A stretch of 64,000 nt of DNA from NCBI RefSeq assembly GCF_000730605.1, contig NZ_BBIS01000019.1, forward strand, positions 62,001 to 126,000, given 5' to 3'. Numbering within the stretch: the first letter of the stretch is position 1; each line of letters starts with the position of its first letter. The position numbers were made by a program, and so were the translations under genes. The DNA comes from Pseudomonas monteilii NBRC 103158 = DSM 14164. GTDB taxonomy: Bacteria > Pseudomonadota > Gammaproteobacteria > Pseudomonadales > Pseudomonadaceae. Below, one piece after another: positions 47,614 to 63,885 of the stretch. The notes below the pieces were generated by a model, which saw only the letters and a program-made list of their open reading frames with translations, ran no database searches and had not been told where the DNA came from.

Positions 47614-48585
47614 TTATCGGCTGCCGATACCTTCGGCCTGCAACCAACGGCGCACGCCGTCGGCCAGCTGGTCGTAGACCTCCGTGACTTCCGGCACGAT
47701 GGACAGTGTTCGCAGCAGATCGTGAGTCAGGCCCTCTGCCACGATACATTCAACGTCCACCCCGGCCTGCTCAAGCCGCGCCGCGTAGGCCTTGCCTTCA
47801 TCCAGCAGCGGGTCCAGGCCTGCCAACAGAATGATCGCAGGTGCAAGCCCCGCAAGCTCATCCGCCAGCAACGGTGAGAAACGCCAATCCCGGCGGTCTT
47901 CGTCGGACTGCGCGTACTGCGCGTAGAACCAGTCGAGTGTCTCGTCTTCCAACAAATACCCTTCACCGAACACCGTGTGCGACGAACGCTTGCAGCTTGC
48001 ATCCGTTATCGGGTAGCACAGCAGCTGGCCAACAGGCGTTATCGCCGCCTGCGGGCCCTGCCTTGCAGCTTCGATCGCCAGCGCAGTGGCCAAGGTGGCA
48101 CCTGCGCTGTCGCCGGCGAACACGACCCGGGCCGGGTCGAGCCCCAGGCGGCGACCCTGGGTCGCCAGCCACTGCACGGCATCTGCGCAGTCCTCGTGGG
48201 CCGTCGGAAACCGGTGTTCCGGGGCAAGCCGGTAACCGACCGAAAGCACCGCGCAACGGGTACGCCCGGCAAGCTCTCGGCATACGCCGTCGTGCGAATC
48301 CAGGCTGCCCACCACGTAGCCCCCACCGTGGAAATACAGCACCACTGGCAAGTTCGCGCCCGCGTCAACCGAGGGTCGGTAAAGCCGTAACGCAAGCGAA
48401 CTGCCATCGCGCACGACAGCCGACAGGTCTTCGACCCGCAGATCCCAAGGCACGGGCCAGCGCAGTCGTTGCGAAGACGACTCGAAGGTTGCCCGTGCCT
48501 GGGCCGGAGAAAGCGTGTGCAGCGGTTTGATATCCAGGTTCAAGCCAGCCAGGTCGAGGAAGGCTTCCAACGCGTTATTCAACAT
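47614..48585 (-). CDS. HSL-family esterase of the pyoverdine locus
   Basis: This 323-residue alpha/beta hydrolase of the hormone-sensitive lipase family has the oxyanion motif YFHGGGYVVGS, nucleophile GDSAG, acid in LAGLDPLLDEG and His in EGLTHDLL. The ATG at 48585 has GGGAG five bases upstream. It begins 38 bp after the NRPS stop codon and is probably in its transcript. The NRPS lacks a thioesterase domain, so this enzyme could help release or edit the peptide; that is inference. The insertion upstream may reduce its expression. Confidence 0.85.
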   Translation of the reverse strand: MLNNALEAFLDLAGLNLDIKPLHTLSPAQARATFESSSQRLRWPVPWDLRVEDLSAVVRDGSSLALRLYRPSVDAGANLPVVLYFHGGGYVVGSLDSHDGVCRELAGRTRCAVLSVGYRLAPEHRFPTAHEDCADAVQWLATQGRRLGLDPARVVFAGDSAGATLATALAIEAARQGPQAAITPVGQLLCYPITDASCKRSSHTVFGEGYLLEDETLDWFYAQYAQSDEDRRDWRFSPLLADELAGLAPAIILLAGLDPLLDEGKAYAARLEQAGVDVECIVAEGLTHDLLRTLSIVPEVTEVYDQLADGVRRWLQAEGIGSR

Positions 48586-48623
48586 GAAACTCCCTAAATG
48601 TTCGGCGCTGCTGTTCCCGGCCG

Positions 48624-51600
48624 TCAGGCCGGGACAGTCACGTCCACACAATGTTCGATCAGTGCCACCAGCTCGCGCTGGAACTGTTCCATCAGCCGCT
48701 CTATCGTCTCGGCTCTGTAGCGGCGTTTGCTGTAGATGCAGCGGAACGAGAGCACCCCGTCGTAGACCTGCCCTACCATCTGCAGCTGGTTCACCAGGTT
48801 GGCATCGGCGTGGTAGCAATCGCCCGGATCGTCGGCGGCTGGCTCCAGCAACGCATGCTCGTCGAAGTGCTGATCGAACTGCCCGAAGTAGTTGAAGGTG
48901 ACCTCGGCCTGGGCACCTTCAAGCAGTTGCCGACGCATCTCACCCGAACCGAACTGGCGCAAGACCGCGTAGCCGATACCCTTTTCGGGGATGGCTGCCA
49001 GCTGCCGCTGCGTGCTGCGAATGGCTTGCGCTGCCGTGTCGTCCAGGCGTGATGTGAGGCGGACCGGGAACAGGCTGTTGAACCAGCCGAGGGTACGCGA
49101 GACATCGACGCCCTCGAACAGGTCCTCGCGGCCATGGCCTTCCAGTTGCACCATCACCGCCTCTTGGCCGGTCCAGCGGCCCAGTGCACGCCCGAGCGCC
49201 GTCAACAAGATGTCATTGACCTGCGTGCCATAGGCAGCCGGCGCCTGCTTCAGGAGCTGCGTCGTTTGTTGCGGCGTCAGCCGGAAATGGCTCACCGCCT
49301 GTTGGCTGGAGTGATTGCGACCGCGCGGGTTGTCGCAGGGCAGCTTCCCGGCGCAAGGACGAACCTGATCAAGCCACCAGGCGCCCTGCTGCGCTTCAAT
49401 GGATGTTGCCTCGGCCTGCAGGCGCTCGACCCATGATCGGTAGCTGCTGGTCCGTGCAGGCAGCACAGGGTCTGTTCCAAGGCAGCACGCCGCATAGGCA
49501 GTCTGCAGGTCCTCGAGGAGAATGCGCCATGACACACCGTCCATGACCAAGTGGTGAAGGATCAACAGCAACCGCGCCTGCCCATCCGGCAGCTGGATAT
49601 GCAGGGTGCGCCAGAGTGGGCCTTGCGCCAGATCGAGGCTGCGTTGCGCCTGGTTGGCCAGTGCCGTCATCGCCTCCATGCTCTCGACACGGTGCAGGTT
49701 CAGCCTGGGCGTCGTGCTACCGGAAGGCTCGCCATAGCACTGCATCCACTGCCCGTGCGGCTGGGAGAAACGCAGCCGCAGCGCGTCGTGATGCAGTTCG
49801 ATATGCTGCAGCGCCTGCTCAAGGGCGACGAGGTCCAGGGCCGCCCGGGGCCTGAGCATCAATGCCTGGTTGAAATGGGCCGGATCGGGCAGCTGCTGCT
49901 CGAACATCCACTGCTGGATAGGCAGCAGGTTGAAAAGGCGCTGGTCGACCTCTGTCGACAGCTGCGCCTCAACCACCGCAGGCGCGGCCTCCCAATGGGC
50001 AACGATCGCCTCGATCGTCTGATAACGCATCAAGTCGCGCAGCTTGAGGTCCAGGTCAAGCTGCGGATGGTTTCTGACACGAGAGACGACTTGCAGGCTG
50101 AGGATGGAGTCCCCTCCCCGCTCGAAGAAATTATCGGTGATGCTCAAATCGTCGACCTGCAGAACCTGCTCCCAGATATCCACCAGGATCGATTCCCGCT
50201 GGTTTCTCGCTGGCTGGAACTGCGTCGAAACGAACTCGGGTTCGGGCAATCGCAGGCGGTCGATCTTTCCATTGGGCGTGACAGGGAATTGCGCCAACTC
50301 GATCAGGTAGGCAGGCACCATGTAATCGGGCAAGTGGTCGGCCAGGCGCGCCTTCAGTTCGCCAGCGATACCCGCCTGCTCACTGACAACGTAGCCTACA
50401 AGCTGTTTGCCTACCGGGCTTTCTCTAACCACCACCAGGGCATTGCGGATGCCTGGCTGCGCCCGCAGGCATGCTTCGATTTCACCAAGCTCGACCCGGA
50501 AGCCACGCAGCTTGACCTGATGGTCGGCACGCCCCACGTAATCGACCAGCCCATCCAGGCGCTGTCGGACTACGTCGCCACTGCGGTACATGCGCCCGCC
50601 CTCGCCAGCCGGATCAGGCACGAAACGTTCCGCCGTCAGGCCCGCACGGCCATGGTAACCACGGGCGATGCCATCACCGCCGATCATCAGTTCACCGGCA
50701 AATCCAATACCAGACGGATTGAGGTCATTGTCGAGGATGTGCAGCGTACGGCAGCCGACCGCATGGCCGATGGGGGCATAGGCAGCCTCGCAACGTGCGC
50801 CGCCGCCCGCCTTCCATAGCAACGGCGTGACCACAGTCTCGGTCGGGCCATAGCCATTGGTGAACAGCCGTGGCCTGAGTGCAGCCTTGACCTGCTCGAA
50901 GGTCTGCTCGGGCACAGCATCGCCGCCAAAGCAGTAGATATCCACTGGCGGTGGCTCGTGCCCCGCGTCATGCACTGCTTCTGCCAGCTGTTTCAGGTAG
51001 GCGGGAGGGAAGCAGGCGATCGTGATTTCATGCTGCCAAAGTGCCTGAAGTGTCTGTTCGGCGGTCCACAACTCGCCATCGCGAATAACCAGAGCGCCCC
51101 CGCTCGCAAGTACGCTGAGCCAGCGCTCCTGGGCCCCATCGAAGGCGAAGGACATGAAGTGCAGTTCTCGCGTCGCAGGCCCCATTTCATAGAGCCGCAT
51201 GATCGCCTGGCAATGCCGGCTCAGAGGGCCTTGAGACACCGCCACGGCCTTGGGCCTGCCGGTCGATCCCGATGTATAGATCAGATAGGCCAGGCAACGC
51301 TCATCCACGGCAATGTCGACGAACGCCGGGCCTGCATCGGCAGGCTGCGCATCAGGCGCGAGAACGGGCAGGTGGCCATGCTCCGGCAGAGCGTCGCGGC
51401 ACGCTGGCCGGGTGATCATCAACGACATGCCTGAATCCTGGATCATCCAGGCCAGGCGCTCCATCGGATACTCCAGGTCCAATGGCACATAGGCAGCGCC
51501 TGTGCGCATTACGGCGAGCAGCGCGACCACCAGCTCCGCCGAGCGTTGCAATGCCACCCCAACCACCGTTTCAGGTCCGGCACCGCTTGCCTGCAAGGCA

Positions 51601-54600
51601 AGCGCCAGGCGCCCCGAACGGCGGTCCAGCTCGGCATAGCTGATGCGCTCATCCCCGCAGACCAGGGCGATGGCATCGGGGCGATCGTGGGCGTGCTCGA
51701 TGATCAGCTCTGCCATCCGTTCCGGGCGGTAGCTTGCCAGCGCTTGCGTGGCAGTGTCGGCGACAGGGGCGCGCTGCGCAGCGGGCACAATGTCCAGGTT
51801 GCCAAGGCGTGCCTGCGCATCCTGCAGCAGGGTTTCAAGCACCGACTCCATGGTCTGGCGAATACCGTCGACCGCCTGTTCGCTGAACGCATTGCGCAGG
51901 TAAAGGTACTCGATCATCAGCGTATCGTTGAGGTGAACCGCAAGGTCCATGGGGAAGTTGGTGACCCCCACGTCATTGGAATCACCAAACTCCAGACCTG
52001 CCTCGGGCGCCTCACGCAAACCTTCGTCGATGGGGTAGTTCTCGAAGACGATGATGCTGTCGAAGAGTTTCTGCCCCGGCACGGCCGACCAGCGTTGAAC
52101 CTCGTTCAACGGCGTATGCGACCAGTTGCGCAGCTCGACGTTGTAGGCCTGCAAGGCCTGCAGCCAGTCCGCCAGGCGCATCCGAGGGTCCAGCGTCTGC
52201 GACACAGGCAAGGTATTGATGAACAGGCCCAAGGTGGTATCGGCATCCTGCAGCGACTCTGGGCGCCCGGCCACGGTCGCGCCGAACGTGACGTTGCGCT
52301 TGCCCGTGTAGCGCTGCAGCAGCAGAAGCCAGGCGCCCTGGATCAAGGTGTTAGGGGTAATACGCAACGTTCGGCAGTACTGCTGAAGACGTTTGGTCCA
52401 TGCGGCGTCACGCCGGGTATACAGCGCGTGGTGGCCCGGTTCATCCGAAGTGTGCCGTGGGTACACGGCCTGACTGAGCGAGGTCACCTCGCTGTGCGCC
52501 AGGCTGTCGCGCCAGAACGCTTCCTGACGAGATTTGTCCTGCGCCTGCAACCAGGCGATGAAATCGCCGTAGCGGCCGCTGGTGCCAGTGACCGGTTGGC
52601 CGGCGTAATGCTGCATCAGTTCGGCAAACAGCCTGGACTTGCTCCAGCCATCCATCAACAGGTGATGGCTCGTCCATATCATCTGGTAACTCGAAGACGT
52701 CAGTCGAACCAGAACCATGCGGTGTAACGGCGCCTGCGTCAGGTCAAAACCTGCCACCAGCTCCTCACGCGCGACCTCACCGGCCAACCTGTCCGGCGCT
52801 GCATCCGCCCGGGCGTCGATTTCGCGCATCGGCATGTTTGCCTGGGCGTGTACGATCTGTACCGGCTCATCCAGCCCGACCCAGTGGAAACTGGTGCGCA
52901 ATACCTCGTGCCGTGCGATGACCGCTGCCCATGCGCCGACGAACGCCTCAATATCGAGCCCGCTGATTGGCAGGCTGACCTGGTTGATGTACAGATCATT
53001 GCCGCTGTCTTCGATCGAATGGAACAGCATGCCCTTCTGCGCAGGCGACAGTGGGTACATGTCTGCGATCTCGGCGATCGGAACCGGCAGCTCGTCCAGT
53101 TGCGTCTGGCTGAGCGAACACAGCGGGAAGTCGGACGGGGTGGCGCCTGCGACACCTGGCAGGGTGCAGTGCTCGATCAGCGCCAGAAGCTCCAGATGGA
53201 ACGCTTCAGCCAGGCCTTGAATGGTGGACTCGCTGAAACGCCGTGAGCTGAAGCGCCAGTCGATGCGCAACCCCTCCGGCCATACCCGAGCATCGACCGA
53301 CAGACCGTTGCCGCACGACGATTCACGCCCTTCCCCGCTCTTCAATGGCTCGAACAGCACGTTGGCCAGCGCCTTGCGGTAGCTGAATGAGCACTGCGGC
53401 ACCGGCAATGCGGCCAAGGTTTCCCTGCTGGCTTCGTCTCCCAGATAGCGTAACGCGGCGAACGACAGGCGCCTGTCGGCAGCCGTACGCAACTGTTGCT
53501 TGAGCCCCTTGATCGCGCCATCCAGCGTGGTCTTGTCAATGTCGAGCACGACAGGGAACGGATAATCCAGGCAGCCAACCGTGCGGCCCAGGTCGACACC
53601 CGAGCCTGCCTGGCGACGGGTATCAGCCTGCACGCCAAGGAAGACCCTGTCCTGGCCTGTCCAGCGGGCCAGCACACGCGTCAGCGCGACCAGCAGCAGG
53701 TCGCCGGGCTCGGCGCGGTAGGCTGCGGCGGCCTGCTCTGTCAGGCGTCGGGTCAGGTCGATGTCCAGCCAGGTACCGAACGTTGCACTGTCGGCGGGCG
53801 CCCCTGCTTCTCGTGGGCTGCCAACCAGCTCGTGACTGATCCCGGCCAGTGCCTTCTGCCAATGGATCAATGCGCTCGGGGCATCCTCGAGCGAGGCATG
53901 CACGGAATACGCCCAGCTCTGAACCGAGGTGGACTTGGCAGGAAGCGCCACAGGCTGCCCTGCGTCGAGCTGCTCGCAGGCCAGGCGCAGATCCTGCAGG
54001 ACGATGTCCCGGGATGCCTCGTCCATCGCCAGCGCATGGTTTACCAGCAGCAGCCGTTGGCTGCCATCGGCCAGCGTCGCCAGGACTGCCCGGACCAGGA
54101 TGCCTCTATGCACATCGAGGCTGGCACTCGCCTGCCTGGCCAACGCATCCAACTGTGCCGGGTCCTGCACAGCTGCAAGCCACAGCACGGGCTCCTTCTG
54201 CCAAAGCGCCTGGTGTTCGGAAAGCGGCGCACCGTGCGCCTCCTGCGCCACATTGAACGCCAACCGCAACCCGTCGTGGTGCGCCAATACGGCCTGCAAG
54301 GCCTTTTCCGTCGTGTCGGGGTCAAGCGCACGGGTGGGCCTGAGCGTCATCACCACGCTGCCAGGCGCATCACCGTTGCCCTGCCGTTCGAAAAAGCGTG
54401 CCTGGGCGGGCAGCAAGGGCACCTTGCCGATGATCGGCCCCTGGTCGAGGGTCGACGTGCCGCCGTCATCCTGCTCTGCCACGCACGCCAGCCCCTGGAT
54501 GGTCTGATGCTGGAACAACTGCTTGGGCGTGAAACGTATACCTTCCCGGCGGGCCCGACTGACGACCTGGATCGACACGATCGAGTCGCCTCCAAGCTCG

Positions 54601-56920
54601 AAGAAGTTGTCGGTGATGCCCACTCTTTCAAGCTTCAGCACATCGGCCCAGATGCTCGCGAGCTTCGCTTGCAGCGCGCTCTTCGGCGGCACGTAGGCTT
54701 TCTGCTGCTGGCTCACATCCGGCTTGGGCAGCGCTTTGCGATCCAGCTTGCCATTGGGGGTAAGCGGCAAGGCCTGCAGCGACACCAGGTAGCTCGGCAC
54801 CATGTAGTCGGGCAATGCCGCTTTGAGATGTTGCAGGATTTCCTCATGGCTGGCCGCCCCTTCCTCAAGCACCAGGTACGCAGCCAGCTGCTTGGCATGG
54901 AGCCCGTCGATGTCGATCACTACCGCCTCGCGAACACCCGGATGCTCAAGCAGGCTGGATTCGATCTCGCCCAGCTCGATGCGCAAGCCACGGATCTTCA
55001 CCTGATGATCGATACGCCCCGCGTACTCGATCACGCCCCCTGTTCGATAACGCGCCAGGTCACCGGTGCGGTACAGCCGCCCCCCACCCTGCTGGCTGGC
55101 ATCATGAGGGTCCGGGACGAACCGTTCGGCAGTGAGGCTCGGCCTGCGATGGTAGCCTCGCGCCAAGCCGACACCGCCCAGGTAGAGCTCGCCGTTCGCG
55201 CCATGAGGAAGCGCAAACAGATCGCGGCTGAGAATGTGCGTCTTGAGGTTGTCGATGGGCGTGCCGATCGGGACGCTGCCCGGGCACGATGGCCGGCAGG
55301 TCCAGTGGGTTACGTCGATCGCAGCTTCGGTAGGGCCATAAAGGTTGTACAGGCTGGCGTGTGGCAATCGGGCCAAGGTCTGCTCCGACAGATCGGCAGG
55401 CAACGCCTCGCCACTGCAGACGACACGTCGCAAGGTATCGCAGCGCTCGACATGCTCGCAGGTCATGAAGGCCTGCAACATCGATGGCACGAAATGCAAC
55501 GTCGTCACGCCGTGCCTCTGAATGGTGCTCACCAAGCGCTCAGGGTCGCGGTGGTCACCCGGTTGCGCAAGCGCCAGCCTGGCGCCGGTCAACAGGGGCC
55601 AGAAGAACTCCCACACCGAGACGTCGAAGCTGAAGGGGGTCTTTTGCAGGACCGTATCAGTGGCGCCCAGACCATAGGCCTTCTGCATCCAGACAAGGCG
55701 GTTGACCAATGCCTGGTGCGCGTTGGCCGCACCTTTCGGTCGCCCTGTCGAGCCCGAAGTGTAAATCACGTAGGCAAGGTGTTCGGGGTGGGTGAGGTGC
55801 ACGGGATCGTTGGCGCTGAAAGCCGTCAGCCAACTGTCGTCGTCATCCAGCACGATGCTGCGCACACTGGAAGGGATCGGCAGGTGTTCGAGCAACGCAC
55901 GCTGCGTCAGCAGTAACCCGATACCGCTGTCGTCCATCATGTAAGCAAGCCGATCCCTCGGATACTCAGGGTCGAAGGGAACGTAGGCGCCGCCGGCCTT
56001 GAGGATAGCCAGCAGGCCCACGACCATTTCCAGCGAGCGTTCGACCGCGATGCCGACCAGCACGTCGGGCCCTACCCCCTGCTCGCGCAATGCGTGAGCG
56101 AGGCGGTTGGCGCGCTGATTGAGCTGTCGATAGGTGAGCTGCTGTTCGCCGAACAGAACGGCCAAGGCATCAGGTGTTTCGCCTGCCTGCGCCTCGATCA
56201 ACTGATGCACGCTCCGATCAGCGGGATAAGGTGCCTGGGTGTGGTTCCAGTGTTCGAGAATTTCCTGCTGCTCATCGGCCGCGAGCAGGGGCAGCTCGCC
56301 GATCCGTTGCCGAGGATGGTCGACGATCGATTGCAGCAGGTTGATCCAGTGCCGCGCCATGCGTTGCACGGTTGGCTCATCGAACAGCGCCGTGGCGTAA
56401 TTGAGCTCTGCCGAGATACCTTCGTCGTGCTCGACGGTGTTCAGGGTCAAGTCGAACTGCGCCGTCTTGCGTTGCCAGGCAATGTGCTCGACCAGCAAGC
56501 CAGGCAAGCTACGCCGCGTGCCTGCGGCGACTTTCTGGTGGTTGTACATGACCTGGAACAGCGGGCTATGGCTCAGGCTGCGCTCAGGGTGCAGCGCCTC
56601 GACCAGTTGTTCGAAAGGCAGGTCCTGGTGGGCTTGGGCATCCTGCGTCATCTGACGCGTCTGGGCCAGCAGGTCGCTGAAGTGCACAAGCGAACCGAAC
56701 TCGGCCTTGAGCACCTGGGTGTTGACGAAAAAGCCGATCAGCCGCTCGGTTTCGACACGGTTGCGGTTCGCGACCGGGATGCCGATGCGGATATCATCCT
56801 GCCCACAGTACCGATGCAGCAAGGTCTGGAAGCTGGCCAGCAGCAGCGTGAAGAGTGTCGCACCCTGCTGCTGCGCCAGTTGCTTGAGGGCATCGGCCAG
56901 ACGGCGTTCGACCTCAAGGT
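48624..56920 (-). pseudogene. Pyoverdine NRPS, 3' part (interrupted by mobile element)
   Basis: This is the distal part of the terminal pyoverdine NRPS. With the 5' part at 63061-63885 it would form a 3,038-residue protein with approximate domains: C 45-480, A 500-990, PCP (Ser near 1052), E-type 1100-1540, C 1550-2000, A 2010-2500, PCP (Ser near 2543), E-type 2590-3038. The first A domain has residues D-V-W-H-V-S-L-I-D, the serine code; the second has D-G-E-C-C-G-G-V-T, the N5-hydroxyornithine code. The first E domain has lost its second catalytic His (see findings). There is no thioesterase domain. The first in-frame ATG is at 56822, so a headless fragment could in principle be made but would lack half of the first C domain. 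Confidence 0.95.
56916..56920 (+). repeat. Target-site duplication, left copy
   Basis: AAGGT next to the left end of the element; the same five bases follow the right end at 63061-63065. Confidence 0.85.
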
Positions 56921-56972
56921 GTCAAAAACTAGTTGATATTTCACAGTTTCTGATTAATTGAAATTTCAGTGT
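56921..56972 (+). repeat. Left terminal region with two subterminal sites
   Basis: Two 18-base sites, AACTAGTTGATATTTCAC (56927-56944) and GATTAATTGAAATTTCAG (56952-56969), match the inverted copies of the two right-end sites at 12 and 13 of 18 positions. They are probably transposase-binding sites. Confidence 0.65.
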
Positions 56973-56993
56973 TATGAGGATGGGAGACAAGAT

Positions 56994-57188
56994 ATGGAAG
57001 AACAGTTTAGCAAGTATGATCCAACTGAATACTTGACCAACGAAGCTGAGATCAATGCCTATTTAGATGAAGCCATGACGATTGGAGAACCTAATTTGCT
57101 CTCTGCGGTTCTTAACGACATAACCAAAGCCAAATGCATGGTAAAATCATGTTCAGAAAACGGAAATAACAATAACGCATGCTTATAG
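56994..57188 (+). pseudogene. Truncated HigA-like addiction-module antitoxin
   Basis: This frame encodes 64 residues from the ATG at 56994, with GGGAG upstream. The start KYDPTEYLTNEAEINAYLDE and the following LLSAVLNDITKAKCM match the N-terminus of HigA-family antidote proteins. The DNA-binding C-terminal half is missing and replaced by an Asn-rich tail (NGNNNNACL). No HigB-like toxin gene is present in front of it, where only 73 bp separate it from the element end. It is most probably a remnant. Confidence 0.65.
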
Positions 57189-57290
57189 CGTAGCACCGGA
57201 TACGTCGAGATTCTTGGCTACATCCTGAGGGGGTACTCCGCTGGCTAATAGCTTTTTGGCAGACTCGATCTTGCTGTAGGTCAACCAGCC
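57183..57290 (-). pseudogene. Resolvase C-terminal remnant
   Basis: On the minus strand the frame TYSKIESAKKLLASGVPPQ, then DVAKNLDVSGATL, matches the C-terminal helix-turn-helix of Tn3-type serine resolvases, whose usual form is KIESARKLLASGTPPRDVA. It is bounded by stop codons on both sides and has no catalytic domain. It records an older Tn3-like element in this island. Confidence 0.65.
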
Positions 57291-57319
57291 TTAACGTGTT
57301 AACCACAACGAACATATGC

Positions 57320-57343
57320 ATTCCCACGCTGGCGCGTGGGAAT
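57320..57343. repeat. Hairpin downstream of the araC-like gene
   Basis: ATTCCCACGC, loop TGGC, GCGTGGGAAT: a perfect 10-bp stem 11 bp after the regulator stop codon. It lacks a T run. It looks like the CATTCCCACGC hairpins that are frequent between genes in fluorescent pseudomonads, and could protect the 3' end of the mRNA. Confidence 0.6.
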
Positions 57344-57354
57344 AAATAATTGTA

Positions 57355-58266
57355 TTAAATTCGCTTAACCTGCTGTGGATTCTGCCCATAATAGCGTTTA
57401 AATTCACGACTGAACTGCGACACGCTTTCATAGCCAACTGCATAAGCGGCGCTTTGCACGGTGCAGTTAGTCTGCGTGAGGCGAGCATAAGCGTGGCTGA
57501 GGCGCACTTTTTTTAGATATTGCATGGGTGAATCGGCCGTATAGTGCTTGAATCTACGCTGCAAGGTGGGAATGCTCATGCCCATATGGGACGCCAAATC
57601 ATGCAAAGTGACAGGCTGATCCAATTGACGTAAAAGAAACTCAGAGGCTTGTAAAAATTGAGCAAAGCTACCATCTTGCTCCAGCCACTCGCGGATAAAT
57701 GCACAAACATCGGCTTGTTCTAATGCCGCATATACCAGCGTTTGAATGTGTGTGGGCATAAACAGATCGCACGTGACTGGATTGCCTAGTGCATTCAACA
57801 ACCCGTATAAAGCCGTTTGGATGGCTGGAGTCACTTGAACAGACAAAAAACCCGAGTGCGAATGGGCTGCTGCCATCTGTTCCGATGTGCTGTCTGAATG
57901 CACAGTCAAGTGGTGTAGCAATTGCGCCACTTGTTTGCGTTCAAAACGGATTTGTATCCCAATGACAGGTTCTTGTTCGCTGGCGCGAATGTTGCAGTAC
58001 ACAGGATAAACTCCAGTCAGCAACAAAGCTTTGCTGGGGTTGTATACGTAATAATTTTGCCCAAGCTGTACACTTTTCTCACCTGAAAATAAAAATACCA
58101 ATCCAGGTGCGTACATTGTCGGTCGCAGCTCTTGAGCGCTGGTCTGATAAAAAAGATCTATGTCAGGGCTGCATGTGGGCAATAGCCCTTCAACTATAGA
58201 TGAATTTGAGGCTTGCTGCTGCTTGAGCAATTGGCGTGCGATGGCGCATAGGGTTTCGTTGTTCAT
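57355..58266 (-). CDS. AraC-family regulator carried by the element
   Basis: This 303-residue regulator has an N-terminal AraC_N-type effector domain (about residues 20-180; LRPTMYAPGLVFLFSGEKSV) and a C-terminal double helix-turn-helix (about 205-303; LHDLASHMGMSIPTLQRRFK and AAYAVGYESVSQFSREFKRY). Two starts are possible, ATG at 58272 or 58266; both lie in a 46-bp palindrome that may act as its operator. It is divergent from the hydrolase gene, 190 bp away, the usual arrangement for a regulator and its target. Codon use is AT-rich, unlike Pseudomonas and more like Moraxellaceae. Confidence 0.88.
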   Translation of the reverse strand: MNNETLCAIARQLLKQQQASNSSIVEGLLPTCSPDIDLFYQTSAQELRPTMYAPGLVFLFSGEKSVQLGQNYYVYNPSKALLLTGVYPVYCNIRASEQEPVIGIQIRFERKQVAQLLHHLTVHSDSTSEQMAAAHSHSGFLSVQVTPAIQTALYGLLNALGNPVTCDLFMPTHIQTLVYAALEQADVCAFIREWLEQDGSFAQFLQASEFLLRQLDQPVTLHDLASHMGMSIPTLQRRFKHYTADSPMQYLKKVRLSHAYARLTQTNCTVQSAAYAVGYESVSQFSREFKRYYGQNPQQVKRI

Positions 58267-58303
58267 AACCATATTTTACATGCAAAATATGGTTATGAAC
58301 AAC
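58258..58303. promoter_or_regulatory. 46-bp palindrome over the araC-like start codon
   Basis: Perfect 20-bp arms (58258-58277 and 58284-58303) flank ACATGC. Each arm reads ATGGTTATGAACAAC outward, so the first five codons of the regulator are present on both strands. It may be an autoregulatory operator, a cruciform or an mRNA hairpin hiding the start codon. Confidence 0.7.
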
Positions 58304-58456
58304 ACTTTCATTGATTTGTGACTATTTTAGGCAAGGAATTGATTTTTTTGGGCATCGGAAATTCAGTGCTTAAAACCTAAGCTATGCTTTGAAGACAATG
58401 CGGCCTGCATTAAATGAAATGATGTGGCTACCCCTTATAAAGCATAGGAATCAAAG

Positions 58457-59389
58457 ATGAGCATTCAAAACCAACCCACAGCAGAACAATTTGCGGTCAT
58501 TCAAGCCGTGGCCAATTTTTCTGCTAAGCCGATGCGCACCCCGATTTTAAAAACCCCTGCTGACCACGGCATGGCCTATGAAGATGTGTTCTTCCCTGCT
58601 TTGGATGGCGTGCCGCTTGAGGCTTGGTACATTCCAGCCGTTCAGCCATCTGATTTGTTGATTATTGCCAATCATCCTTTGCCGATGAATCGCTATGGCT
58701 TGGCTGGACATTTATCTCCTTGGGACATGCTTGACCCGACAGAAATTAATTTTTTGTTTGAGTTAAAACACCTGCATGATGCTGGCTACAATATTTTGAC
58801 TTATGACTTACGCAATTTAGGCCGTAGTGGCACAGGAGGCAATGGTGCTTGTGGTGTGGGTCGTTATGAGTGGCGTGATTGCGTTGGTGCACAAAACTAT
58901 GTCAACGCACATCCAGAATTGTCAAAAATGAAAGTGGGTCTGTTAAGCCGTTGCACAGGTGGCAATGCTCAGTACGAGGCAATTTCACGTCATCCTGAAT
59001 TGTTTAAAGATGTAGCGTGCATGGTCAGTCCAATGGTGGTTTCAATGGAAGCGTTCACCAAACATTATGCAAATTCTGTGGTGGCAGGTGCTGGTGATTT
59101 TCCTGAAATTTTGGACTTTGAACAAGTCAAAGCAGGCGGCTTGAAAAACTCAGAAATGACTCCTCACCTCTTTGCACCCGATGTCACTATGCCAACTTTG
59201 GTGGTGCAAGTGCGTGAAGATCGCTGGACTTCAGTGGAAGATGGCGAAAAAACTTTTGAGCTGTTGGGCGCAAAAGAAAAAGAGCTGTTCTGGATTGAAG
59301 GGACACCACGCCGTTGGGTTGGCTACAACTACTTTGGCAGCCATCCTGAAAAGTTAATTGGCTGGTTCGACAAATACATGAAGGTTTAA
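58457..59389 (+). CDS. Alpha/beta hydrolase with cysteine nucleophile
   Basis: This 310-residue alpha/beta hydrolase has AGGA before the ATG. The nucleophile elbow reads GLLSRCTGGNAQ, where the usual Ser of G-x-S-x-G appears to be Cys (S-R-C-T-G). The acid is probably in VQVREDRWTSVEDG and the His in YFGSHPEKL near the C-terminus. An upstream strand-helix region LIIANHPLPMNRYG could supply the oxyanion hole. The gene faces away from the AraC regulator, which probably controls it. The family resembles dienelactone hydrolase-type and acetylxylan-esterase-type enzymes; the substrate is unknown. Low G+C marks it as foreign. Confidence 0.85.
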   Translation: MSIQNQPTAEQFAVIQAVANFSAKPMRTPILKTPADHGMAYEDVFFPALDGVPLEAWYIPAVQPSDLLIIANHPLPMNRYGLAGHLSPWDMLDPTEINFLFELKHLHDAGYNILTYDLRNLGRSGTGGNGACGVGRYEWRDCVGAQNYVNAHPELSKMKVGLLSRCTGGNAQYEAISRHPELFKDVACMVSPMVVSMEAFTKHYANSVVAGAGDFPEILDFEQVKAGGLKNSEMTPHLFAPDVTMPTLVVQVREDRWTSVEDGEKTFELLGAKEKELFWIEGTPRRWVGYNYFGSHPEKLIGWFDKYMKV

Positions 59390-59425
59390 GTTTTGCTAAA
59401 TATATAAGCTGTAGAAGTCGCGATC

Positions 59426-59470
59426 TGATCTGACAGTTACCTGTTTTGTGGATGCATAACTGTCAGATCA
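59426..59470. repeat. Perfect 14-bp inverted repeat with 17-bp spacer
   Basis: TGATCTGACAGTTA (59426-59439) and TAACTGTCAGATCA (59457-59470) lie 37 bp after the hydrolase stop codon. There is no T run. It could be a transcript-end hairpin, an operator for the next gene or the scar of an older element end. Confidence 0.7.
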
Positions 59471-59644
59471 ATTCAAATTAGTTACTTTTTCACTTTATGT
59501 TATCTGTTAGCAGGAGTGTTTATTGTTGAGGCTCAGACTAGCACTTAACATAACCCTCAACTTAAGAGCGGCATGATCCTGAGTTAGCGGGAGGATTACC
59601 GTGGACAAGTTGTTGCTGCTCTATTTTCTTACCCAATAAGGCAA

Positions 59645-60235
59645 ATGAATATGAAGAATGCACTAATTATCAATGCACACCAACGTTGGGAAAATTTTGC
59701 GGAAGGTAAACTGAATCAATCTTTTGCCTCTGTCGCAGAAGATCGTTTAACCATGCTAGGCTATAACGTTCAAACAACAGTTATTGACGAAGAGTATGAT
59801 GTTAATAGTGAAATAGATAAACATCAATGGGCAGATGTGGTTATTGTACAAACGCCACTGTTTTGGATGAGTGCACCATGGCTATTCAAGAAGTACATTG
59901 ATGAAGTATTTACAGCAGGTTTAGGCGGTAAGCTAGCTCATCATGATGGTCGAGTAATCGATGACCCCAGCCAACGTTATGGTTCTGGCGGTGTTGAGAA
60001 AGGTAAAAAATTCATGCTATCCGTAACACTTAATGCGCCTAAGTATGCTTTTGATACTAATGAGTTTTTTGAAGGTAAAGGTGTCGACGGTTTATTTATG
60101 TGGCTACACAAAGTATATCAATTTAATGGCTTTGATTCTTTACCAGGCTTTGCAGCCTATGATGTAATTAAAAACCCAACTATTGAACAAGACTTCGCGA
60201 ATTTTGACAAGCACATTTCCCAACTGTTTGCTTAA
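59645..60235 (+). CDS. MdaB-like NAD(P)H quinone oxidoreductase
   Basis: This 196-residue flavodoxin-fold protein belongs to the NQO/MdaB family. It begins ALIINAHQRWENFAEG (FMN phosphate loop) and continues WADVVIVQTPLFWMSAPWLF and KKYIDEVFTAGLGG, segments that contact FAD and quinone. It would reduce quinones or other electrophiles by two electrons. AAGG precedes the ATG. Its G+C is lower still than the hydrolase gene, with a 255-bp gap between them; it ends in a terminator. Confidence 0.88.
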   Translation: MNMKNALIINAHQRWENFAEGKLNQSFASVAEDRLTMLGYNVQTTVIDEEYDVNSEIDKHQWADVVIVQTPLFWMSAPWLFKKYIDEVFTAGLGGKLAHHDGRVIDDPSQRYGSGGVEKGKKFMLSVTLNAPKYAFDTNEFFEGKGVDGLFMWLHKVYQFNGFDSLPGFAAYDVIKNPTIEQDFANFDKHISQLFA

Positions 60236-60256
60236 AATTTCTCCATACTTAAAAGG

Positions 60257-60288
60257 CAGCAAGACAAAAGCTTTGCTGTCTTTTTTTT
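60257..60288 (+). terminator. Terminator of the quinone reductase gene
   Basis: CAGCAA and TTGCTG form a stem followed by eight T residues, 21 bp after the stop codon. Confidence 0.8.
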
Positions 60289-60352
60289 AATATCACTGTT
60301 CCAGATGCCAACATATGGCACTAAAAAACCGTGAAATGATAGGTCTGCCAAT

Positions 60353-60505
60353 ATGTCAAAGTCGATGATTATTCTAGCTGTCTTTTGCCTTGCGGCAATC
60401 ATTGCAGGTTATCACTACTACAGAACTCAGACTTATTGGATCATCTGGCGTGTACTAACTGACTCGGTTGATTTCAGTATGAACAGAGCTTTTGCAGGAA
60501 GTTAA
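60353..60505 (+). CDS. Putative 50-aa single-span membrane peptide
   Basis: This short frame encodes MSKSMIILAVFCLAAIIAG followed by a basic/aromatic stretch (YHYYRTQTYWIIWRVL) and a short tail ending FAGS. It would make one membrane helix at about residues 5-20. No convincing ribosome binding site is visible and I do not recognise a family. It may be a real small protein of the cargo or chance. Confidence 0.35.
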   Translation: MSKSMIILAVFCLAAIIAGYHYYRTQTYWIIWRVLTDSVDFSMNRAFAGS

Positions 60506-60898
60506 TTTGATATTTGCTTAGAAAATCTACGTTACTGAGTTTGCAGGCACTGATGAAGAAACGGGTCCGTCCTTGTAACAGCCTGAATTAGACCTGGGTA
60601 TGCATATACCGGTGTAGTGATAAGGAAGCAAGGCTCGGATGACATCATGGCGAGGGAGTTAATCCCATCATAACGCCGGATATATGGTCGCAAACCGTAT
60701 CAGTTCAGTTCTTGCACAACCCGGGGGCGTCCATATATGGTTTAATCATCCGGACACCATTTTAGGTGGTACAGTCGCCACCATGACCTGAGGTGTTCAA
60801 TGACAAGATTACGTCGCTCATTTACTGCCGAATGGCGTTGTTGCCCAAATCGATGCAGCTTAAATTGAACTAACTAAGGACTTGGTGATCTGATCAAC
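60506..60898. other. Non-coding scrap region with IS remnants
   Basis: About 390 bp separate the membrane peptide from the transposase remnant. Near 60800 the frame MTRLRRSFTAEWR resembles the start of an IS3-type OrfA (RRSFTAEFR) but stops after 22 codons, and TCCGGACACC near 60750 resembles an IS3-family end. I see no intact gene. Confidence 0.45.
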
Positions 60899-61346
60899 AA
60901 TGAAACGGTACTGCCGTTCTTCGAAGCCCATGAGGCTCGGGTCTATACCATCTTATCGGACAACAGGCGCGAGTTCTGTGGGCGCCCTGACCACTATCCC
61001 TACGAGCTGTTCCTACAACTGGAGGGGATTGAGCACCGGACCACCAAGGGGCGTAGACCGCAGAGCAACGGCTTTATCGAGCGACTACATCACACACAGC
61101 TGGACGAACACTTCCGTTATCAAGGGGAGGACAACCTGGTATGAGTCGGTGGAGCAGATGCAGACAGACCTGGACAGCTACCTGGATCACTACAACACCC
61201 AGCGGCCACATCAGGGCAGGATGATGAAAGGACAGACTCCCTACAGCATGTTCATTAAGGGTCTGAAATTGATACCGAAGGAAGTGCGCACTAAAGTAGC
61301 GCGTAAACAAGACACCGGTTTGAGGCCGGTGTCAGGTGATAACTAG
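60899..61346 (+). pseudogene. Frameshifted IS481-family transposase remnant
   Basis: Only the C-terminal half remains, split over two frames. Bases 60899-61144 give LPFFEAHEARVYTILSDN and RRPQSNGFIERLHHTQLDEH, with the second Asp and the Glu of the DDE core, then a stop. After a frame change near 61130 comes TWYESVEQMQTDLDSYLDHY and NTQRPHQGRMMKGQTPYS. The N-terminal helix-turn-helix and the first Asp are missing. It cannot be active. Confidence 0.8.
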
Positions 61347-61422
61347 ATCTATACAATCAAATCAAGTATGAACTTCTACAAATAAACTCAGCATATGCAG
61401 ACCTTATTTACACAGGCCTAAT

Positions 61423-62937
61423 TTATGATCGTGCTCTCTGCTGCCACAGGTTTATCGCATCTTGAACAACTGGTGACGGAGATTCATCTCTTGGCCCTGT
61501 TATTTGTGGCCTTCCCCGTTTACGTTTTACCGCTGTCTGTGTAGCTTCATTGGCAATATCGGCAAGTTCTAGCCTATCTAATTGTGCCTCCATCCGTTCA
61601 CCACTGACATCCAACAGCGCCTTGTAATACTGTTCTTCCCCCAGTCGATTCGGCTTTACCTTGTCTGGATGTGGCCCACGACGTCGGTTGGCTGTCGGGG
61701 TGTTCGGCAAGCTACGTGAACGCACATCATCCCGCATCGTCTGTACTTCCTGAGCCATCTGCAAAACGTGGCCAAGCCGCTTGTTATCAACAATAGCCCC
61801 CTGATTGACCGGTGCAAGCCGATCATTAATGCAGTAATCCAACAGGTTGCCATCAGGGCCACGTAATTCAACCCGATCATCGCAATAGTGATAAACCACA
61901 ATTTCTCGTCCAATCAGACGGCGTTGGGAAGGCGTATCCATCAACAGATATTGCACCTTGTCATATTGCGTCGTAAGCCGTTTTGAGATCAGCCTTGGCT
62001 CTTTCCAAAGCAGGATATGATCCAGATTATCATGTGGGCTCAAGGGGCGATGTACATCCAGTTCATGCAATGGAGCTTTGCCAAAACGTCGGTTGTAATC
62101 AGCGATAAAGTCCGGTAACCATTTATTAGCATCGTCTATCGAGCTGATGCCAGCTAACCTCAACTCCTTCACCAACCTATCCTGTAAGGTCAGGTGTGCA
62201 CGTTCGACACGTCCCTTGGCTGCACTGCTATGAGCACAGAACCCCTCGATATTGAGTTCGTCCAGGGCTCGCGCAAACTGTGTTTGTCCCTCACCACGGG
62301 AGGACTTGTGATTCACCCTAAAAACGCTGGCCTTGTCGCTGTAAAGGGCCAGTGGCTTGCCATGTGCGCTCAGATGATCGCGCAAGGTACTAAAATAGGC
62401 GAATGTAGACTCGGAATACACAAACCGCAGAGCAGTGATCTGGCTAGTAGCGTCATCCACGAACACGATGGCAGTACATGTAGGCCCTCTTTCCTCAAAC
62501 CATCGATGATCACAACCATCGATCTGGATCAATTCGCCGAAGCAAGCACGCCGGTAGCGAGGCTGTTGGATTCTTGGAGGGCGTTGTCGCCGTGGCACCC
62601 ATAGTCCCATATTGATCATCAGCTGGCGTACCGTAGACACGGCAAGGTGGAGATCGTGTAGCTCGACCAGCTTTTCTGCTGCGAGGGTAGGGCCGAAGTC
62701 GGGGTAATGCTGTAAAATCAGTTGCCCAGCTAGTTCCTTCATGCCGGTCGGCAACTGGTGATTACTGGGCTTACCAACGCGCAGTGATCGTAATCCTAGC
62801 GGCCCCTCCAGCCGATAACGCGCCAACAGGTTGTAGACCTGTCTGGTACTCAGATTAATGCGTTGTGCCGCGATACTGGCAGTCAATCTACCCTCTGCAA
62901 GGGCTTCAATGGTCTTTAACCGATCCACTTCCTTCAT
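61423..62937 (-). CDS. ISNCY/IS1202-family DDE transposase
   Basis: This 504-residue transposase has an N-terminal helix-turn-helix (VDRLKTIEALAEGRLTASIA) and an rve-type catalytic core. The triad is D in ELIQIDGCDHRWFEERG, D in LALYSDKASVF and E in AKGRVERAHLTLQDRL. The C-terminal part has QGAIVDNKRLGHVLQMAQ, typical of ISNCY transposases. I chose the ATG at 62937, which has GAGAG upstream; the frame opens 21 codons earlier (63000) without one. It lies 123 bp from the right end and reads inward. It looks intact. Confidence 0.9.
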   Translation of the reverse strand: MKEVDRLKTIEALAEGRLTASIAAQRINLSTRQVYNLLARYRLEGPLGLRSLRVGKPSNHQLPTGMKELAGQLILQHYPDFGPTLAAEKLVELHDLHLAVSTVRQLMINMGLWVPRRQRPPRIQQPRYRRACFGELIQIDGCDHRWFEERGPTCTAIVFVDDATSQITALRFVYSESTFAYFSTLRDHLSAHGKPLALYSDKASVFRVNHKSSRGEGQTQFARALDELNIEGFCAHSSAAKGRVERAHLTLQDRLVKELRLAGISSIDDANKWLPDFIADYNRRFGKAPLHELDVHRPLSPHDNLDHILLWKEPRLISKRLTTQYDKVQYLLMDTPSQRRLIGREIVVYHYCDDRVELRGPDGNLLDYCINDRLAPVNQGAIVDNKRLGHVLQMAQEVQTMRDDVRSRSLPNTPTANRRRGPHPDKVKPNRLGEEQYYKALLDVSGERMEAQLDRLELADIANEATQTAVKRKRGRPQITGPRDESPSPVVQDAINLWQQRARS

Positions 62938-63009
62938 GGTAAACACTCTCTCACGATGGGGCACAGGCAGTCTCCTTAGTGATGGCGGGTATCCTTCCAT
63001 CAGACCGAT

Positions 63010-63060
63010 TGTGCAATTTCAAATCAACCCAATCGTGAAATTACAACTCAACGCTTACAC
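63010..63060 (-). repeat. Right terminal region with two subterminal sites
   Basis: GTGCAATTTCAAATCAAC (63011-63028) and GTGAAATTACAACTCAAC (63035-63052) are direct repeats matching at 15 of 18 positions, 24 bp apart. Their inverse forms occur at the left end. Confidence 0.7.
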
Positions 63061-63065
63061 AAGGT
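63061..63065 (+). repeat. Target-site duplication, right copy
   Basis: AAGGT, identical to 56916-56920. Confidence 0.85.
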
Positions 63066-63885
63066 ACACGCTGGCGCCCTCGAAACACTGGTTCGCTGGG
63101 CGCGGGCGGTCGCTGGGCAGCTCGAGAACCGGGTGCTCGGTACCCAGGTGCTGCTTCCAGAATGCCAACTGTCGTTCCTGCTCCCCCGCTTCCATCCAGT
63201 GCCTTTGCCAGATGGCATAGTCGGCGTACTGGATCGGCATCTCGGGAAGCGCGAGGGGCTGGCCCATGCAGTGATGCGCGTAGTGCTGGATCAGCTCTTC
63301 GACCATCAGGTGCATCGACGAGCCGTCAGTGGCGATATGGTGCAGCGTAATGATCAGCACATGATCATCTTCTGCTACCTGTAGCAACCTGACTCGAACA
63401 GGCCGTTCGTGCTCAAGATCGAAAGGCGCGCGGGCCTCGGCCTCTACAAGCGCCTGCAGGCGCTGTTCAAGATCGATTGCCGGTTCGCGGTCTACCTGCT
63501 CGACATCGAGCGTGAACACGCTTTGTGGATGAATGATCTGCACCACCTGATCGTCGTTCAGACCAAACGTGGTTCGCAGGGTCTGGTGGCGTGCCTGCAG
63601 TGCCTCGAAGCTCGCGCGTAACGCCTTGCTATCCAGTTCGCCCTTGAGCCTCAAGGCGACTGGCAGGTTGTAGGCAGATCCCTGGGGGTCCATCTGCCAA
63701 AGGAACCACTGGCGCTGCTGGGCAAACGAAACCGGGATGACGTCGAACAGTGTTTGAACGCAGGGCACTGGCAAGTTGGCCGGAGAAATGTTCTCGGCGT
63801 GCATCTTCTGCAGATACAGCTTGCGCTTGGCCAACGGCAGCGTAACAAAACGCTTGGCGATATTCAGCGCGGCATCATTACTCAT
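63061..63885 (-). pseudogene. Pyoverdine NRPS, 5' part (interrupted by mobile element)
   Basis: This part holds the start and the first 275 residues of the NRPS, ending in SVYL at the insertion. It contains the N-terminal half of a condensation domain: VSFAQQRQWFLWQMDP and the catalytic motif LHHIATDGSSMH near residue 180. Beyond the junction the frame enters the element and stops after one extra residue. The ATG overlaps the stop of the preceding NRPS gene by four bases (63882-63885). The product would be a half C domain without function. Confidence 0.95.

Follow-up and report, generated by a model that had tools for sequence, protein, structure and literature searches.

Inactive epimerization (E) domains are known from glycopeptide synthetases, in which the E domains of modules M3 and M6 are described as inactive and the DCL domains that come next as relaxed (Rausch et al., 2007, PMC1894796). 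The positions behind the relaxation could not be found there (PMC1894796). Within the P. fluorescens complex, NRPS2 of one pyoverdine type is described as having gained or lost an E domain, from which D/L variation of the product is predicted (PMC11366639). A review (PMC11546977) summarises work by Peng et al. (2024) in which a laboratory Glu-to-Leu change in a condensation (C) domain switches donor preference from D to L, and in Pseudomonas lipopeptides the dual E/C domains are described as including cases of idle epimerisation (PMC10531924).

The NRPS locus analysed here, from a Pseudomonas monteilii strain, shares features with each of these systems, as far as the cited accounts of them go. 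Specifically; 1) like the glycopeptide synthetases it has a former E domain that is probably inactive and a D-type C domain following it, L donors being accepted there and proposed here, but those synthetases are from actinomycetes and do not make pyoverdine, and the positions that could not be found there contrast with the single one that follows E status across many pyoverdine-type sequences here; 2) as in the P. fluorescens system, pyoverdine NRPSs differ by an E domain, although there the change concerns the second module of NRPS2 (Orn), is described as presence or absence only and is accompanied by lower identity of the flanking carrier (T) and C domains, whereas here there are dead and shrunken intermediates and the T domain is unchanged; 3) as at the site altered by Peng et al., an acidic residue of a D-accepting C domain is lost, which in that work admits L donors, but here the change is natural, is to Gly and is linked with loss of the E domain; and, 4) as in the lipopeptide dual E/C domains, there are domains which seem able to epimerise yet are probably idle, but here the E domain stands alone and the following C domain lacks the N-terminal His motif of dual domains.

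Dead E domains, relaxed D-type C domains and the gain or loss of a pyoverdine E domain at another module are already known. As far as the open-access literature tells, what is new is a recurrent series of decay at the penultimate module together with a co-change at a single position; no earlier report of the link between this Asp/Gly position and the E domain was found in that literature. We hold it probable that the first E domain of this synthetase is dead, that epimerisation has been given up so that Ser stays L, that a change from Asp to Gly adapted a D-accepting C domain to an L donor, and that this has recurred across Pseudomonas.

The locus and its first epimerization domain

The window, by which we mean the whole stretch of 64,000 nucleotides that was analysed, lies on contig C114 in a genome of 6.3 Mb. 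Its terminal NRPS gene is split, and the features used below are as follows.

63055–63885, minus strand: 5' part of the NRPS gene (start and first half of the first C domain, C1), 276 aa, covering positions 3–226 of the Pfam Condensation profile
56921–63060, no strand: insertion of 6140 bp inside C1, with ACCTT flanking both sides, holding a transposase and other genes
61423–63000: ISNCY-type transposase gene within the insertion
48624–56822, minus strand: 3' remainder of the NRPS gene, encoding 2732 aa with the second half of C1, A1, T1, the dead E domain, C2, A2, T2 and E2
54723–56210, minus strand: adenylation domain A1, code DVWHVSLIDK (Ser), read from an alignment
54468–54680, minus strand: carrier domain T1, motif LGGDSIVSI
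53178–54455, minus strand: dead E domain, with His changed to Ala930, EGHGRE to QADTRR at 1065 and FNYLGQ to FSYRKA at 1146
51771–53072, minus strand: condensation domain C2, subtype found downstream of E domains (LSPAQKGMLFHS...HHLLMDGWS)
51966–51968, minus strand: codon of Gly1619 in C2 (DVGVTNFPM), an aligned column that is Asp in relatives with an intact E domain
50238–51725, minus strand: adenylation domain A2, code DGECCGGVTK, read from an alignment
48678–49955, minus strand: second E domain, C-terminal and intact-looking (HHLVMDGVSWR, EGHGRE, FNYFGQ)
47614–48585, minus strand: alpha/beta hydrolase gene, 323 aa, adjoining the NRPS gene and used as marker for orthologous clusters

The insertion also carries a gene for an AraC-type regulator and encodes a hydrolase resembling UilS lactonase, the score of which lies below the curated cut-off. 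The split copy probably yields no pyoverdine, and because the insertion probably stops its peptide, the fate of Ser in this strain becomes a question for uninterrupted orthologues. Since another NRPS lies upstream on C114 and ends just before the split gene, and a PvdL-like synthetase of 4342 aa is found on contig C100, the NRPS of the window is very probably the final synthetase of the pyoverdine line. Both contigs terminate within NRPS adenylation domains and may adjoin, with one module in between. In the window (47614–48819) and in 74 orthologous loci the terminal synthetase closes with an E domain and has no thioesterase, and in many relatives a hydrolase gene of the hormone-sensitive-lipase type adjoins it; the adjoining hydrolase, named relatives of which are mostly from Pseudomonas, might release or cyclise the peptide.

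The code of A1 is one that we take to be specific for Ser, and on this code the Ser assignment of an earlier note on this DNA stands. The code of A2 is that of the final module in nearly every synthetase whose codes were read, and its residue is probably (hydroxy)ornithine. Lys was considered for A2 and rejected, as the Lys codes given for P. fulva in the relevant part of PMC12195549 are different and the same A2 code is typical of the last module.

In E domains generally, the motifs HHxxxDG and EGHGRE hold the catalytic His and Glu, as established with TycA and GrsA. The first E domain of the window, after the Ser module, reads NHALAMDEASRD, with Ala930 in place of the second His. The motif, VNHALAMDEASRDIVLQDL on the minus strand, falls within 53800–54600, where the earlier note had placed it, with H as residue 929 and A as residue 930 of the 2732-aa frame and the Ala930 codon at 54035–54033; the residue number that was given with it, 'near 1233', does not fit this frame and was probably counted from the gene start upstream of the insertion. 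A gapless alignment to LHHLVMDGVSWRILLEDL of the second E domain sets Ala against the second His, Glu against Gly and Arg against Trp, which confirms what had been noticed about the His and the Gly, and the motif of the second domain, LHHLVMDGVSWR, is indeed intact. Not covered by that note were the losses of EGHGRE and FNYLGQ, the change in C2 and the recurrence of these events.

The HHxxxDG position thus reads HALAMDE, that of EGHGRE, with its catalytic Glu, reads QADTRR, and FNYLGQ has become FSYRKA. HH...D is kept in 132 of 136 aligned E domains, and the four without it (the window, L123, L131 and L142) all occupy this penultimate-module position. From these motifs we infer that epimerase activity is absent from the first E domain. 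By sequence and fold it is an E domain over its full length; of 107 residues shared without exception by 40 intact E domains of the same position, it retains 63. The Pfam condensation profile gives it 129 bits, compared with 243–280 for the four other E domains found in the genome, and a search of PDB sequences returns PvdL (248 bits), TycA (117–125) and GrsA (113). The AlphaFold model of the domain (pLDDT 83.7, pTM 0.83) is matched by Foldseek to the E2 domain of PvdL with a TMq of 0.85–0.86 and to the E domain of TycA with 0.81. Of 298 genomes searched within the genus, 213 matched at 1e-60, but none yielded a close homologue of the dead domain, the best foreign match reaching 45%. None above 42% was present among 57 relatives, and a pattern scan of named genomes found none.

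The Asp/Gly position in the next condensation domain

Orthologous clusters were collected with the hydrolase gene as marker, from 398 genomes, 154 of which matched at 1e-75, and from 63 loci of named genomes, and the terminal synthetases were read in loci L122–L181 and L182–L244. From 96 records ending in T-E, 22 were dropped as duplicates, leaving 74 distinct synthetases, in which E status was judged from motifs; four cut records of this first sample (L159, L227, L229 and L233, all with Asp at the position described below) were dropped as well.

C2 of the window falls into the group that follows E domains: it comes after a T1 reading LGGDSIVSI, members of its family stand after intact E domains, and its best match in the PDB is C3 of PvdL, which follows E2. 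A regular expression for HHxxxxGD, the N-terminal motif of dual E/C domains, had no match in the 74 C2 sequences. At the column of residue 1619, where an acidic residue would be expected of this group, the C2 of the window has Gly. In the first sample this is the one column of 456 aligned C2 columns that separates the two states, being Asp in 40/40 synthetases with an intact E domain and Gly in 34/34 in which the E domain is lost. The same column in 70 other C domains after an intact E domain, a comparison restricted to such rows and to the terminal C2 rows, holds Glu 63 times, Asp six times and Thr once, and is therefore acidic in 69 of the 70.

A second sample comprised 60 stretches from other genomes, taken from among the listed matches to a C2 profile and making up part of these; because it was chosen by the C2 profile, it is independent in genomes and not in domain type. 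E states were entered by hand, L258 (ESHGRE for EGHGRE) was counted as intact, and three stretches in which the upstream region could not be seen (L251, L259 and L274, all with Asp) were dropped. Among the 57 sequences that were kept, those with an intact E domain have Asp (22/22) and those with a dead or missing one have Gly in 33 of 35 cases. Adding the 74 and a further 15 rows from the first sample brings the total to 146 sequences, in which Asp accompanies every intact E domain (68/68) and Gly accompanies 76 of the 78 dead or missing ones, the rule holding in 144. The two exceptions, L269 and L273, have no E domain, carry a linker scar and keep Asp; with one code for Ser and another resembling that for Dab, they are not accounted for by an achiral residue. 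Mutual information between this column and E status reaches 0.907 of 0.997 bits, against 0.551 for the next best column.

It is conceivable, although in our judgement somewhat unlikely, that the E domain is dead and that the Asp/Gly position nonetheless has nothing to do with donor stereochemistry, being a marker of lineage or tied to the T-C interface or to domain spacing. The number of independent switches is indeed small, the two exceptions keep Asp without an E domain, and C2 differs at other columns too within the clade that was sampled best. Where two deletion types occur in one clade, C2 has 37 more fixed differences, so that Asp/Gly has competing candidates in that clade. T1 and A2 show no fixed difference when intact members of the best sampled clade are compared with those that lost the domain. 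Against this reading, E status changes ten times on the tree and Gly nine times, with the nine Gly changes matching E changes, and the branches with support force at least six switches. In independent pairs Gly follows the E domain in 5.5 of 6 and opposes it in none (sign test, median p 0.031, range 0.031–0.0625), which with six pairs on supported branches is the limit of this test, the counts of species not being independent events. Moreover, Gly is also found beside dead E domains of full size (the window, L123, L131, L189, L142, L207, L268 and L270), and since spacing is kept in these, mere distance does not explain it.

Retuning of C2 together with the loss of epimerisation is the reading that we prefer, and a pair of near relatives bears on how the two may be ordered. 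L258 has an intact E domain and Asp, and L268 has Gly; the E domain of L268 keeps HH and ESHGRE (HHLVADDVSWG) but shows VADDVSWG, GRFTS and NYRDQ. Judged by these motifs, L268 is a possible first step of decay, and, should Gly be a sign of idle epimerisation, C2 can switch before the E domain has lost much of its usual appearance. The residue that Peng and colleagues exchanged is reportedly E386. An alignment through the TycB1 chain places the Asp/Gly column at 382–385, and by this analogy the two are likely one site.

A probable decay series and the constraint on the dead domains

The penultimate module of the 74 distinct orthologues has an intact E domain in 40, a degenerate one of nearly full size in six, a remnant of about half size in two and none in 26, and GGDSI of the T domain is retained in all 74. 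Among named strains, the domain is intact in P. lini DSM 16768, P. mandelii and P. iridis and is deleted or reduced to a remnant in P. paraglycinae BML-PP023, P. anatoliensis P141 and P. fontis ID681. An uninterrupted orthologue, L123, has a frame of 3031 aa in which the second His is likewise gone (AHPLVIDAASWP); its identity to the window is 76% in A1, 82% in T1, 76% in C2 and 73% in A2; for the second E domain the figure is 59%, and the dead E domain, at 40%, evolves fast beside the adjoining A1, T1 and C2. When E status is mapped on a tree built from the C-A region downstream, seven changes are needed for the four states and four for intact versus lost.

The order of events is best seen in a clade of 25, in which the E domain is kept by eight, almost gone from L136 and L202, dead in L131 and L189, and lost between other end points in the remaining 13. 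The dead E domain of L131 and L189 is placed between the two deletion types and groups with the intact E domains of its own clade (support 100/99, other long rows left out), and members of the clade without the domain retain the E-C linker (...DYPLAQLDQAQLDALPVP...). For these two reasons activity was probably lost first in this clade and the domain deleted later, at least twice. In the clade of the window, no clear scar was seen in the members that lack the domain.

That the dead E domains arose once and were spread by recombination, and did not decay repeatedly, we regard as unlikely. A quick tree of E domains does unite the eight dead ones in a single group with a support of 77, but this tree carries a warning of joined long branches and for that reason we do not take it as evidence of a single origin; the placement of the window's dead domain among the intact ones is not fixed by the E-domain trees. 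The grouping of L131 and L189 with intact domains of their own clade, and the closeness of L268 to the intact L258, point instead to repeated decay. As a separate observation, the terminal E domains of L150 and L152 have altered motifs (HHLAMDLVSW and HHLAMDLISW, ETHGR, FSYLGQ), which may point to a changed last residue as well.

We also estimated constraint on the dead domains (dN/dS, Nei-Gojobori). The values are 0.38 for L131-L189, 0.30 for L142-L207, 0.37 for the remnants of L217-L234 and 0.40 for the window and L123, the last with dS of 1.6 and hence near saturation. The other domains of the same four pairs give 0–0.24, intact E domains at the same position 0.10–0.25 (12 control pairs), and neutral simulation gives means of 0.77–0.93 with a lowest value of 0.56. 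As the dead domains lie above the controls and below the simulation, constraint on them is relaxed yet still present, as is expected of a dead domain that must fold.

The same residual purifying selection (0.30–0.40, below neutral simulation) could be read as the mark of a new use, in which the dead domain would serve as a docking platform that recruits a tailoring enzyme, like an X or interface domain. In glycopeptide synthetases, P450 enzymes are recruited by an X domain at the end of the line; the dead domain here is internal and precedes C2. Interface domains belong to hydroxy-Asp siderophores, come after an Asp (or His) module and act together with a beta-hydroxylase. C-like domains without activity occur in hydroxy-Asp pyoverdines, and X domains are of that kind as well; Foldseek finds 4tx3 and 4tx2 with a TMq of 0.69–0.73. 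However, the dead domain is best matched by E domains in both sequence and fold, and relatives shrink it or delete it altogether, so that we think this use quite unlikely. An interface domain in particular was rejected: the code of A1 is for Ser, neither Asp nor His, and the seven matches to the TauD profile lie on contigs C95, C124 and C80, with none on the cluster contigs C100 or C114.

It is very improbable that the first E domain still epimerises by means of other residues. GGDSI of T1 is kept and the fold looks intact, but the catalytic His and Glu motifs are both gone, relatives have lost the domain, and the C2 after the dead domain has Gly, as in sequences without an E domain. Barely credible is the notion that the whole gene has been a pseudogene since the 6140-bp insertion split C1 and that the E motif merely decayed along with it, as L123 has the same dead E domain in an uninterrupted frame and, in the window, the 2732 aa run without stop or frameshift and the other domains keep their motifs.

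Proposed course and its meaning

We propose that the first E domain is the catalytically dead relic of an epimerization domain that once worked, and that Ser on T1 would no longer be epimerised, L-seryl being handed on. C2, which would descend from the D-donor type that follows E domains, may have been retuned for an L donor, most visibly at residue 1619, where an otherwise invariant Asp has become Gly. C2 would then take the L-seryl donor and the chain would proceed to A2 and the terminal E2. Across Pseudomonas this module would have followed a recurrent course from loss of activity, through a folded domain under loose constraint, to trimming or deletion in frame, while the T and C domains stay.

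The expectation of the earlier note that Ser stays L gains support from the dead E domain in the uninterrupted L123, from the apparent origin in several lineages and from Gly in C2, and L-Ser would be predicted in the product on these sequence grounds. Likewise, the pattern of co-change suggests a causal role of Asp/Gly in the choice of donor, and outside the clade of 25 the order of the decay steps would be the same by extension. A stronger proposal, which we regard as evenly balanced, is that the donor choice of a D-accepting C domain hinges on one acidic residue, and that a pyoverdine stereocentre is repeatedly inverted in evolution by killing the E domain and changing the acid to Gly, and that the downstream residue predicts the activity of the upstream E domain even where that domain looks intact, as in L268.

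What makes this module informative is that intact, dead, shrunken and deleted stages stand side by side and that the change was repeated several times in nature. How a C domain reads the handedness of its donor can now be tested by one exchange, and the residue offers a means to recognise idle E domains from sequence in the genome-based prediction of peptide structures. For the pseudomonads themselves, it means that pyoverdine diversity can arise without the swapping of modules.
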